Shown: piece after piece, positions 8,636 to 20,203 of the stretch | Numbering within the stretch: the first letter of the stretch is position 1 | Layout of the letters: the number at the start of each line of letters is the position of its first letter | Assembly: GCA_003153775.1 (NCBI GenBank) | Contig: PMBI01000064.1 | Location: 1 to 34,952, forward strand | DNA length: 34,952 nt | DNA from: Syntrophaceae bacterium | Lineage (GTDB): Bacteria; Desulfobacterota; Syntrophia; Syntrophales; UBA2185 | Direction of reading: 5' to 3' | Program-made: the position numbers and the translations under genes | Notes under the pieces: model-generated | Databases searched by the model: none | The model's input: the letters and a program-made list of their open reading frames with translations, nothing else | What the model was told of the DNA's origin: nothing

Positions 8636-10222
8636 CTATTCGGCGGAACGCACCGGGAGCGCACGGCTATACTTATGCACCCCCTGAGGATCGACCTCAT
8701 CGCCATAGTACTGAAGGTATCGGGAATCGGAAGACCAAACCCACCAACAGGTAAGATGAATCAATGCCGTTAAATGGACATTATAACCACAATCAGAACG
8801 ATAAGTCTTACTCTTGTCAGACAATGCCCCCAGTTCAGCGATCGTCGGCATCCGCCAGTCCGTATGCTCGCCCCCGCGATAATTATCGCAATAGGACTTG
8901 GCGCCCGCCCAATCTTTTATACTGCTCCCGTTGTCCTGTGCCGCCCACATCAGATTTGTCTTTGTATCCAGGACCGTACCGTCGTCATATGCAATGAACC
9001 GACCGTTGTTCCTGATTTCCTTCGGCAGAGTCTTACCCATTGCCCTGAGTCGTTCCAACTTTTCTATCCGTGTGCTTGCATATTTCCGAATCTCATCACC
9101 TTTGGCAGTGCGCTCATCCGGCAGGGTTGCCATGAATTGTTGCCACACCTGAATCTTCTCGGACAAATTCGAGCTTTCGTTTTCAATCTTCTTTGCGTCC
9201 TCAAAATCCTTAACCCACTGACTTTCCTTCTCCCGTCTTTCTTCCATCTTCCTTTTAAGATCTTCAAAGGATGAACGCTCCGGAGGCTGAACCGGGGCAG
9301 ATGGTCTTTCCACATCTTCCTTCTGCGTCTGCTTTCCCGGCACTTCTTTCGTCGCCGAATCAGGCACAAAATAGAACTTCCCCTCTAACGATGATAACTC
9401 CCAGGGCACCTGGCCCGTTTCCTTCTTTAACTTCGTTCGCACTTTAATAAGAACGTCACTTATGGTTAGTCCAGGCTCCTGCATGAACTTGATCAACGCC
9501 GCCGTATAAGGGCTGTTGCGTCCTTCACCGTCACGGGCCACGTTTCCGGGACTGGTGGAATAGGAAATGAAAGTGCCCGACGGGGCGCTGCTGACGATGG
9601 CCAGGCCCCTTGAGGCGCTTCGGAAGCTGCGGGCAAAAGGATTGTCCCGACAGGCATCGAGCATTACAATATTCAGGCCATTGTTGGCGGCGGCCATTTC
9701 ATCGAGGATCTTATTGGCGTCAACAGCCTGATATTTGATGTCCGCTTCCTTGTTTATTTTTGCACCAATCGGCAGCAGGTAATTCGTCCCATTTATCTGA
9801 ACGCCATGTCCGGCATAGTAAAACAAACCCACGCCGCCTCTCTTCAGCCGGTTGCCAAACGCCTCAACTGCGTCGTCCATTTCCTGCAACCTGGCGTTTC
9901 TCTTGAGCGTAACGGTAAAGCCGAGTTTCTTCAGCAAGGCGGCCATGTCTGCCGCATCGTTGACAGGATTCCTCAAAGGACCGGAGCTGTAGGCGCTGTT
10001 GCCGATGACAAGGGCTGTCCGCCGCTCCGGGGCGGCAATCGATCCGGGTAAGACTTCTGCCGACTCACTCTTGCCGGCATTGGGCTTGGGGATTTCTGCC
10101 GGCGAGGGCGACTCCTTCTCGATATCAGGCGGCGGTTGTATACGTTTGGCAATCAATGAAGACGGAAAGATTAAAATAAGTATAAACAGGATAAGGAAGA
10201 TTCTTATAGGCATGGCTTGCAT
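8636..10222 (-). CDS. exported caspase-like (C14) protease with DUF1566/Lcl tail
   Basis: The protein has 528 residues. A signal peptide or N-terminal anchor (about 1-25) is followed by a Pro-rich linker. A caspase-fold domain (about 66-295) starts RRTALVIGNSAY and shows the catalytic pair His139 in YYAGHGVQ and Cys191 in LDACRDNPF. Residues about 310-390 are charged and helical, probably coiled coil. The C-terminal 130 residues resemble DUF1566 (FimH-like/Lcl C-terminal lectin-type fold): DGTVLDTKTNLMWAAQDNG, DWRMPTIAEL, WWVWSSDS and a final RALPVRSAE. SD AGGGGG precedes the ATG. Caspase-like proteases cut after Arg, Lys or Asp depending on the subgroup; the substrate is unknown. A periplasmic or surface role is inferred. 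It converges with the prenyltransferase. Confidence 0.85.
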   Translation of the reverse strand: MQAMPIRIFLILFILILIFPSSLIAKRIQPPPDIEKESPSPAEIPKPNAGKSESAEVLPGSIAAPERRTALVIGNSAYSSGPLRNPVNDAADMAALLKKLGFTVTLKRNARLQEMDDAVEAFGNRLKRGGVGLFYYAGHGVQINGTNYLLPIGAKINKEADIKYQAVDANKILDEMAAANNGLNIVMLDACRDNPFARSFRSASRGLAIVSSAPSGTFISYSTSPGNVARDGEGRNSPYTAALIKFMQEPGLTISDVLIKVRTKLKKETGQVPWELSSLEGKFYFVPDSATKEVPGKQTQKEDVERPSAPVQPPERSSFEDLKRKMEERREKESQWVKDFEDAKKIENESSNLSEKIQVWQQFMATLPDERTAKGDEIRKYASTRIEKLERLRAMGKTLPKEIRNNGRFIAYDDGTVLDTKTNLMWAAQDNGSSIKDWAGAKSYCDNYRGGEHTDWRMPTIAELGALSDKSKTYRSDCGYNVHLTALIHLTCWWVWSSDSRYLQYYGDEVDPQGVHKYSRALPVRSAE

Positions 10223-18006: not shown

Positions 18007-18819
18007 TTATCTCTTGAGATTGTAACCCGCGGTGTTCTCTGTCCAGTCCGTAAGTTCGATCTGGTTCAGCCTCCTGACAAGGTCGCTGATCATCCCGGTT
18101 GACTTGGCATCATACACCTGGAAAATCCCTTCTCTAAAACCGATGGAAAGCAGTGCTTCCTTCTGCCGGGTCGCGATGATCTTGATTCGTTCTTCAGCAA
18201 AGGCTTCCTTTTGGTTCGGCAGGAACATGGCTTTCAGATGAATGGGGCTGTCTGCCGGAGGGAATTGGTATGCCCTTCCCGCTCTCGTAAAATTGTCCTG
18301 CATATTTGAATTGGGAAGAAGGAGAGTGACGGAGCCGTCTGCAGCAATGGAAAAAATATAGACATAAGAATCTCCACTCACCTGATAGAATATCTTTACT
18401 TCATCCCCTTCCTTCAGGTCTGTTTTCGAGAGGGACAGCTTTACGGAGAGGCCTTCTCCCTTCTCAGGATAGACGGGTTCGATCAGGGCTTTGATTTTTA
18501 TTCTGTAGAGGTTTCTTTCTTTTGCATCCCAATCCGATGCGATGATTTGTTCCTTTGTGATTTTTCCCCTGACAGCGGCGTAGATCAGGTCTTCGGCGAT
18601 CTGGCTGTTGGAGACTAATGTGCGGGATCTGATAAATGTACCAACTGCAGTTTCTATCGCCTTGCTCTCTGCATCCCGCTTGGCCCTGTCTTTTACCTCC
18701 TTCAGTGTATCCATCTCTGATTGATACGATGTGCCGTCAGCCGTAACCCAAAGGGGCTTATCAGCAGAAGCCACAACAGGGATCAGGAGGAAGGCCAGGA
18801 TAAAGAGTATTGTTTTCAT
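18007..18819 (-). CDS. exported DUF4384-domain protein
   Basis: The protein has 270 residues from the ATG at 18819, whose SD GAGGGG overlaps the stop region of the caspase-fusion gene 7 bases away. A TTG nine codons earlier is in frame but has no ribosome site. A signal peptide (1-19, ending VVASA) is followed by a charged region resembling LPP20/FlgT-type lipoprotein repeats (about 25-115). DUF4384 covers about 122-210, seen in KLSLSKTDLKEGDEVKIFYQV, SYVYIFSIAADGSVTLLLPN and the later PIHLKAMFLP. DUF4384 is often found beside or inside caspase-like and Ser/Thr-kinase surface proteins; its role is unknown. The tight coupling to the fusion gene suggests partners in the periplasm. Confidence 0.85.
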   Translation of the reverse strand: MKTILFILAFLLIPVVASADKPLWVTADGTSYQSEMDTLKEVKDRAKRDAESKAIETAVGTFIRSRTLVSNSQIAEDLIYAAVRGKITKEQIIASDWDAKERNLYRIKIKALIEPVYPEKGEGLSVKLSLSKTDLKEGDEVKIFYQVSGDSYVYIFSIAADGSVTLLLPNSNMQDNFTRAGRAYQFPPADSPIHLKAMFLPNQKEAFAEERIKIIATRQKEALLSIGFREGIFQVYDAKSTGMISDLVRRLNQIELTDWTENTAGYNLKR

Positions 18820-18826
18820 AAACCCC

Positions 18827-20203
18827 TCAATTTTTCTTCGCCCCAATCAACTGCGGCGTTTGTTCGTTGTTGTACTGCTTCCGAGCAATGCGTTCAACTT
18901 GAGGCTTCAGGTAGCTGAACAAGTCTGTAAGTGCAATTGATCCGTCCTTTTTCACTACATCTTCATTCTTGATTCCCTTCAACATGAAATATGTGAAAAG
19001 CCCGTGGCCTTTTTCCTCATAGGTCGAGCTGATCTGGTCCCCGGACGCGGCGCTCAGTACAGCCACTTTTTTCGGGATTGATTCGCTGCTCATGGTCATA
19101 ACCAGCGGCCTCGCGCCCTTGGCAATCACGCTCCTTCCGCCCGCTCCGGAGAAACATGAATCAAGCGCCACGATTATTTCCTTCGCAGGGAGTTTTCCGA
19201 GTGCATCATAGAGCCTTCGGAGCGGATAGCCGGTCTCCCCGATAAACGCGGGGTCTCCGTCATACGGAACGAGATAGGCGTCACCCGTCTTGGGATTCGG
19301 CGCACCATGCCCGGAATAATAAACAAACACCGTGCCGCCTTTTTCAACATTGTTCGGCAGCCATTTTTCAAAATATTTTACGAAGTCTCCCAAAGCGGCA
19401 AGGTCATTCGTGAGCGTTACAACATTCTCTTCCGGATAGCCCATCGCCTTTGTGAGATATTCCGTTACCAACTTTGCATCGGCGGCCGCGAAATCGGCCC
19501 TGGGCAGCTTTTGGCGGTAGTTCTCGATGCCAATGACTATCGCATATGCCTTGCTGTTGGGCCGTGCCTGTGCATTAGGGGGAAGAGAGATGTCCGTTTG
19601 ATCAGGAGCGGGAACAGTTTTTTGCGGCTGCGCCGTGACAATCGGCTTTCCATCAAAGTACGCCATTAATACATCCGCAGGAGCATATCCGATCCTTCTC
19701 CGTCCGTCAGGAAAAATGGTGGTCGGAACGCCGGTGATATTCAAAGACTGTGCGAGCGCGATGGTCTTATCGACAGCGTCGCTGTTGCAGTCCCGTGCGG
19801 GGATCGGCTTGTTTTCAAAATTGTCTTCAAGCATCTGCAAGGAAGAGCTGCAAAGGATGCTTTTTGATTTCCAGTAAGCGTCCTTGTGCATTGCCAAAGG
19901 AAAAAGTCTTATATAGAAGGCAACGTCGTTGCGCTCTGCCACAATTTTTTTAAGCTCTGCGTGAAGTTTCAGGCAATAAGGACAATCAGGGTCGGTAAAA
20001 ACCACGGCCTTTTTCGCTGCCGCAGGGTTGCCCATGACAAGAGCGTGTTCCTTCGTAAGGTCGCTGAAAGATGCATCTGGCTGCTTGACGGTAAACCCGT
20101 AAGCGTATTGTCCGTACGAGACTACCAGAAAAACAATCAGACAAACTGACGCAAACTTGACTGACATAGATATGCGACCTATGTTTCTTCCTCTTGCTTT
20201 CAT
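18827..20203 (-). CDS. DsbC-like thiol-disulfide domain fused to caspase-like protease
   Basis: The protein has 458 residues with SD AAGGAGAGG before the ATG. A basic N-terminus and hydrophobic stretch (about 14-36) should direct export. Residues about 40-190 form a DsbC/DsbG-type thioredoxin fold: FTDPDCPYCLKLH with redox pair Cys74/Cys77, cis-Pro160 in TGVPTTIFPDG, and a second Cys pair 118/139 spaced as in DsbC. After a Pro-rich linker (about 192-215), a caspase fold (217-455) begins KAYAIVIGIENY, with catalytic His299 in YYSGHGAP and Cys350 in LDSCFSGAGG. The fusion is in one uninterrupted frame. Either module is common; the combination is not one I recognise. A periplasmic redox-controlled protease is an inference. 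It leads a six-gene run. Confidence 0.9.
   Translation of the reverse strand: MKARGRNIGRISMSVKFASVCLIVFLVVSYGQYAYGFTVKQPDASFSDLTKEHALVMGNPAAAKKAVVFTDPDCPYCLKLHAELKKIVAERNDVAFYIRLFPLAMHKDAYWKSKSILCSSSLQMLEDNFENKPIPARDCNSDAVDKTIALAQSLNITGVPTTIFPDGRRRIGYAPADVLMAYFDGKPIVTAQPQKTVPAPDQTDISLPPNAQARPNSKAYAIVIGIENYRQKLPRADFAAADAKLVTEYLTKAMGYPEENVVTLTNDLAALGDFVKYFEKWLPNNVEKGGTVFVYYSGHGAPNPKTGDAYLVPYDGDPAFIGETGYPLRRLYDALGKLPAKEIIVALDSCFSGAGGRSVIAKGARPLVMTMSSESIPKKVAVLSAASGDQISSTYEEKGHGLFTYFMLKGIKNEDVVKKDGSIALTDLFSYLKPQVERIARKQYNNEQTPQLIGAKKN

Follow-up and report, generated by a model that had tools for sequence, protein, structure and literature searches.

We describe a bacterial gene that encodes a DsbC/DsbG-like thiol-disulfide domain and a caspase-like protease in one chain, and we propose, at a little under an even chance, that the Dsb-like domain would act in cis as a thiol reductase or redox gate for the catalytic cysteine of the protease, Cys350. 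The gene lies in a stretch of 34,952 nucleotides from Syntrophaceae bacterium (contig PMBI01000064.1, genome G000), hereafter the window, where it occupies 18827–20203 on the minus strand and comprises 458 codons and a stop. An initial annotation had correctly recognised the uninterrupted 458-residue frame but left out its strand; the plus-strand translation of the same interval is full of stops. Every residue to which that annotation had assigned a role (CPYC at 74–77, Cys118, Cys139, Pro160, His299 and Cys350) is present in the sequence as described. The features of the gene and of its downstream neighbour are as follows.

18827–20203, minus strand: fusion gene for a DsbC/DsbG-like and caspase protein of 458 amino acids (open frame; Pfam; ortholog with 96% identity from end to end)
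20096–20203, minus strand: probable Sec signal peptide without a lipobox, residues 1–36 (recognised by eye from a basic n-region, a hydrophobic core and AYG-F)
19643–20053, minus strand: DsbC/DsbG-like catalytic domain without DsbC_N, residues 51–187 (Pfam Thioredoxin_2 at 64–182; PDB matches to DsbC and ScsC)
19973–19984, minus strand: CPYC redox motif, residues 74–77 (sequence and Dsb-domain alignment)
19850–19852, minus strand: Cys118, first of the second cysteine pair (kept in 24/24 aligned Dsb domains)
19787–19789, minus strand: Cys139, second of that pair (kept in 24/24 aligned Dsb domains)
19724–19726, minus strand: cis-Pro160, within GVPTT (158–162) and preceded by Val159 (Dsb-domain alignment)
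19577–19597, minus strand: junction motif TDISLPP, residues 203–209, corresponding to the family motif SD[IV]DxLP (motif common to 36/56 close relatives)
18830–19558, minus strand: constant caspase module, residues 216–458 (Peptidase_C14; MALT1/metacaspase fold; no amino-acid change against the ortholog)
19307–19309, minus strand: His299 of the catalytic dyad (His in 71/72 homologs)
19154–19156, minus strand: Cys350, the nucleophile and only cysteine of the caspase domain (Cys in 71/72 homologs)
18007–18819, minus strand: downstream DUF4384 gene, a candidate partner (Pfam DUF4384, E 7.9e-20; ATG start at 18819)

Both domains are intact, as the initial annotation had maintained. Pfam places Thioredoxin_2 at residues 64–182 (E 7e-17, above the curated cut-off) and Peptidase_C14 at 220–452 (E 5.3e-13; 49.6 bits against a curated cut-off of 21.4), and sequence searches of the PDB return DsbC proteins for the first half (best match 3gv1, 4e-14) and metacaspases for the second. 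An AlphaFold2 model, built on an alignment of 34 sequences, shows two domains with confidence (mean pLDDT 73.9), joined by an unordered linker of low confidence at 188–200; residues 1–44 are also of low confidence. In structure comparisons the first half matches ScsC and DsbC (Z about 18.5), and residues 213–458 match MALT1 (Z 20.5), followed closely by plant metacaspases and procaspase-7. The cysteines of the protein stand at positions 21 (in the signal peptide), 74, 77, 118, 139 and 350, and the fusion protein is probably exported from the cytoplasm.

The source genomes are fragmented draft assemblies, in which an assembly error or a frameshift might join two genes, but we regard this explanation as scarcely credible. 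An equally fused ortholog, 96% identical over 458 residues, is found in a second genome of the same genus (Syntrophaceae bacterium fen_1164, PLMX01000119.1; G001), with flanking genes as in the window and a surrounding stretch of 8.5 kb that is approximately 95% identical in DNA, and a third fusion is found in another family (G034). Because of the syntenic ortholog in a congeneric genome, the fusion is not an assembly artefact, and a sequencing-induced fusion, which the initial annotation had named as one finding that would undo its claim, is ruled out. The DsbC–caspase fusion is real, the product neither of chance nor of sequencing.

The first half of the protein shares with DsbC and DsbG a thioredoxin-like catalytic domain with a CXXC motif, a cis-proline and a second cysteine pair, and its CPYC is that of DsbG. 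It departs from both in the absence of the dimerisation domain DsbC_N, for which Pfam returned no match at E values up to 1, in the replacement of Thr by Val before the cis-proline, and in its C-terminal caspase. In DsbC, DsbC_N forms the substrate-binding cleft of the dimer. Standalone relatives in the order consist of DsbC_N and the catalytic domain and are mostly 49–57% identical to the fused Dsb domain; one such paralog, with DsbC_N at 4.3e-13, is encoded in the window's own genome (contig C53, L110). CPYC and the second cysteine pair are kept in all three fused copies, and the residue before the cis-proline is Val, Val and Leu in these copies as against Thr in 21/21 aligned standalone relatives. 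Threonine is usual at this position in DsbC and DsbG; valine or leucine there recalls oxidases or thioredoxins, and valine is typical of disulfide-generating enzymes (PMC5909903). The NCBIfam equivalog cut-offs are missed both for DsbC (41.8 of 215 bits) and for DsbG (26.7 of 124), and, judged from its sequence, the fusion protein is not to be filed as a member of either. Among the standalone DsbC-like relatives, five (L056, L057, L058, L060 and L061; Nitrospirota/Thermodesulfovibrionales or uncultured) have an in-frame TGA at the first cysteine of CXXC (TDPD-TGA-P[YF]C), at the same position in each, and these are probable selenocysteine DsbC proteins. The frame of the standalone DsbC in G034 (C15, L135:1998-2786) breaks at the same place in CXXC.

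The second half belongs to a large and apparently undescribed family, in which a constant exported caspase is combined with swapped N-terminal modules. About 70 proteins, from related genomes and from 84,980 species, match over the last 250 residues, mostly at 50–80% identity; they derive from Thermodesulfobacteriota, Nitrospirota and a few other groups, and differ in their N-terminal parts. Peptidase_C14 matches all members of the resulting set of 72 proteins, whose N-termini carry ankyrin repeats (27), PDZ (6), CARDB (5), TPR (3) or thioredoxin-like domains (3), and in single members an S41 protease, LamG, DUF2846, PEGA or no recognised domain. By a simple pattern, 46/72 have a lipobox, and the genes often stand in tandem, with up to six at one locus (L040). 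On a tree of the caspase module the N-terminal labels require 40 changes, compared with 48.9 for shuffled labels and a minimum of 24, and hence exchange of the N-terminal modules has taken place many times; the caspases nearest to that of the fusion protein are preceded by ankyrin modules or by modules of unknown type. The caspase domain possesses exactly one cysteine, the nucleophile, in 56/56 close relatives. The acidic residue before the nucleophile, Asp348, is conserved in 72/72 homologs and, as in metacaspases, suggests cleavage after Arg or Lys.

Several variants were seen within this family. A canonical EF-hand-like loop (e.g. DMDKDGAIEMAEL) occupies the last third of the constant caspase in 16/72 relatives, including L043, L044, L045, L046, L047, L052, L053 and L054, and may place the enzyme under calcium control; the loop is degenerate in the window's caspase. 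One CARDB-caspase homolog (L050:6989-8773) has zero cysteines in its caspase domain and is probably catalytically dead. At two loci (L017:2016-4268 and L051:283-2478) an S41 C-terminal-processing protease (PDZ) is joined to the constant caspase, giving two proteases in one exported chain. The window itself holds a second caspase gene at 8636–10222 (minus strand), which encodes a caspase with an Lcl_C domain and is of the same subtype as the caspase fused in G034. A third, a TPR-PDZ-caspase (DACHSG), lies on the same contig just outside the window (G000 C10, 37251–39300; L133:3252-5300) and adjoins an S41/PDZ protease gene.

The fusion gene is followed by the DUF4384 gene, for which an alternative TTG start at 18846 would give an overlap of 20 nt with the caspase gene. 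Across the family a DUF4384 gene directly follows the last caspase at 20 loci, mostly within 35 bases; it is absent at 27 loci that have room for it, and 4 further loci are cut off. The window's genome contains one other DUF4384 match (contig C78), with no caspase on its upstream side and its downstream side cut by the contig end. The model of the protein resembles LPP20 in its first part and an Ig fold in its second, and its PDB matches are weak: macroglobulin-like Ig domains reach the highest Z, 9.2, and LPP20-like proteins about 7. By its position, the DUF4384 protein is likely to serve the caspase module as partner or substrate. When these two genes were scanned with PADLOC profiles, the caspase matched a generic caspase profile only (2.4e-15) and the DUF4384 partner matched none; these two genes lend no support to an anti-phage defence reading. 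The gene upstream of the fusion is a divergent Na/sulfate-type symporter gene, and a scan of the locus for promoters and terminators gave nothing convincing.

The pairing of Dsb domain and caspase is rare, being present in three of 155 genomes of the order (G000, G001 and G034). No further fusion was found in 395 genomes drawn from the phylum or in 297 genomes searched with the whole protein, and a pattern scan of 84,980 species, which missed G034 and so is not exhaustive, found one further copy (L016, which is from the same assembly as G001). Long frames in G329, G349, G393 and G326 were considered as fusions and rejected, as they proved to be extended or spurious and to contain no caspase. 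On a tree of Dsb domains the three fused copies group in a single clade (support 99/100). In G034 (locus L008), from another family of the order, the Dsb domain is 67% identical to that of the window but is followed by a caspase of another subtype (LDACRDNP) and by an FKBP domain; its junction (TDLSVPAAARASHNAMPYA) resembles that of the window (TDISLPPNAQARPNSKAYA), and its caspase is 62% identical to the window's other caspase at 8636–10222. On the simplest reading, the constant caspase would have been the first partner of the Dsb domain, and another caspase would have taken its place later in the line leading to G034. The Dsb module would thus have been kept with a caspase through an exchange of the caspase itself, and this is our best evidence that the pairing matters.

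The two halves also differ in how they have changed. Between the window's gene and the G001 ortholog the caspase shows 0 nonsynonymous and 15 synonymous codon differences, and the Dsb domain 11 and 18 (Fisher p 0.008 against the caspase), a pattern of purifying selection that points to very strong constraint on the caspase half and weaker constraint on the Dsb half. At fourfold-degenerate sites the two orthologs differ at 5/116 positions in the caspase module compared with 10/56 in the Dsb part, and the flanking genes are also higher; gene conversion or recent exchange is a possible cause of the low fourfold divergence at 18830–19558.

In the mechanism that we propose, the gene product would be an exported, modular caspase-type cysteine endopeptidase in which the Dsb-like domain works as a reductase within the same chain, keeping Cys350 in its thiol form, or returning it to that form, in the oxidising envelope. 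Because the caspase domain has exactly one cysteine, no disulfide switch can operate within it; the only courses open to the thiol of Cys350 are oxidation to a sulfenic acid, a mixed disulfide with a second chain or domain, or renewed reduction. DsbG, described as a protector of single-cysteine envelope proteins (PMC7089426), would provide a parallel by acting likewise on single-cysteine envelope enzymes, and S-nitrosylated caspase-3 is reactivated by mammalian thioredoxin (PMC9598160). Protease activity would be tied to the redox supply of the envelope, that is, to CcdA/DsbD-type electron input as opposed to VKOR-type oxidation. The genome contains one DsbD_TM/CcdA-like gene and one VKOR-like thioredoxin-fused gene, which makes reducing and oxidising routes both plausible; no match to DsbB was found in it.

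That the Dsb domain might switch or protect the caspase cysteine had been suggested by the initial annotation, and the suggestion stands in part. It gains indirect support from the single cysteine of all 56 close relatives and from the recurrence of one Dsb clade on two caspase subtypes, and it is weakened by the exchangeability of the N-terminus and by the lack of a redox domain in most relatives that share this caspase and its single cysteine, so that such a domain is not generally needed in that compartment. Also against a reductase in cis are the presence of a redox domain in only 3/72 members, the rarity of the fusion within the order (3/155 genomes), the Val or Leu before the cis-proline in place of the Thr typical of DsbC and DsbG, and a model in which the linker is floppy and the active sites make no contact.

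In the main alternative the Dsb-like domain, like the other N-termini, would select substrates for the constant caspase, catching envelope proteins with free or mispaired cysteines and passing them to the protease. The N-terminal slot has been swapped repeatedly and is filled mostly by binding modules (ankyrin foremost, with PDZ, TPR, CARDB, LamG and PEGA), the Dsb half has changed faster than the caspase half, and the FKBP folding-catalyst domain in one fused copy fits the handling of misfolded proteins. Yet 3/3 fused copies retain the catalytic cysteine pair as well as the fold, and the DsbC_N domain that would supply a binding cleft is missing; we consider this role possible, though somewhat doubtful. 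The Val before the cis-proline, typical of disulfide-generating enzymes (PMC5909903), and the VKOR-like gene of the genome would suit an opposite polarity, in which the domain, as a monomeric sensor of the oxidase type, would hold Cys350 in a mixed disulfide and keep the protease silent until the surroundings become reducing. Such an oxidative off-switch seems unlikely to us, given the Leu at this position in the third fused copy and the lack of contact between the two active sites in the model. Rarity and the faster change of the Dsb half might even indicate a neutral by-product of module shuffling in which the Dsb half no longer matters, but the catalytic residues are intact in all three copies, which come from two families of the order, and the retention of the Dsb module through caspase exchange adds to this in making a non-functional fusion highly improbable. 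Reduction or gating of Cys350 in cis is the reading we retain, and in its widest form, a self-maintaining protease whose cysteine is kept active or gated within its own chain, belonging to an undescribed exported-caspase family with a DUF4384 partner gene and re-aimed by N-terminal swaps, we offer it tentatively.

The fusion belongs among the modular bacterial caspases, a known kind. With bacterial metacaspases and orthocaspases (Asplund-Samuelsson 2012, PMC3501461) it shares Peptidase_C14, the His-Cys dyad and an association with many accessory domains, and several caspase genes per operon have been reported for Deltaproteobacteria (PMC3501461); that survey covered 671 prokaryotic caspase homologs, and neither 'thioredoxin' nor 'ankyrin' appears in its main text. 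The nearest published design is that of the EACC1 systems (Kaur et al. 2020, PMC7159879), in which the caspase stays constant, its C-terminal domains vary and the partner is a membrane protein; they resemble the present family in having a constant caspase, an exchangeable domain and a conserved neighbouring gene. However, the variable domain is C-terminal in EACC1 systems and N-terminal here; their partner is a single-TM EACC1 protein encoded 5' of the caspase, whereas the conserved neighbour here encodes an exported DUF4384 protein and lies on the 3' side; and, unlike EACC1 systems, members of the window's family carry signal peptides or lipoboxes. On these sequence features the fusion is not to be filed as a member of an EACC1 system. 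Among NCBIfam families the caspase half matches NF047832 best (E 6.8e-24), and 72/72 relatives match it too, but the caspase half misses its cut-off (84.5 of 140 bits). DUF4384 has been tied to caspase domains in pseudo-orthocaspases (PMC6426788) and cyanobacterial orthocaspases (PMC7475262); the reported combinations are in one chain, whereas here DUF4384 forms an exported protein of its own, encoded by the gene immediately downstream. No description of the Dsb-caspase architecture was found in the open-licence papers searched, and no Pfam or NCBIfam family spans both domains, which is in line with the earlier statement that no named family with this arrangement was known.

If the proposed mechanism is true, the fusion would be a case of a caspase-type protease, active outside the cytoplasm, whose redox control is built into its own chain, and a covalent counterpart of the link between thioredoxin and caspase in animals. 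The locus also exposes a family composed of one near-constant exported caspase, many N-terminal modules, tandem arrays and one partner gene. This constitutes a natural experiment, in which versions of one protease that differ in their front ends can be set side by side to learn what role bacterial caspases play in the cell envelope.
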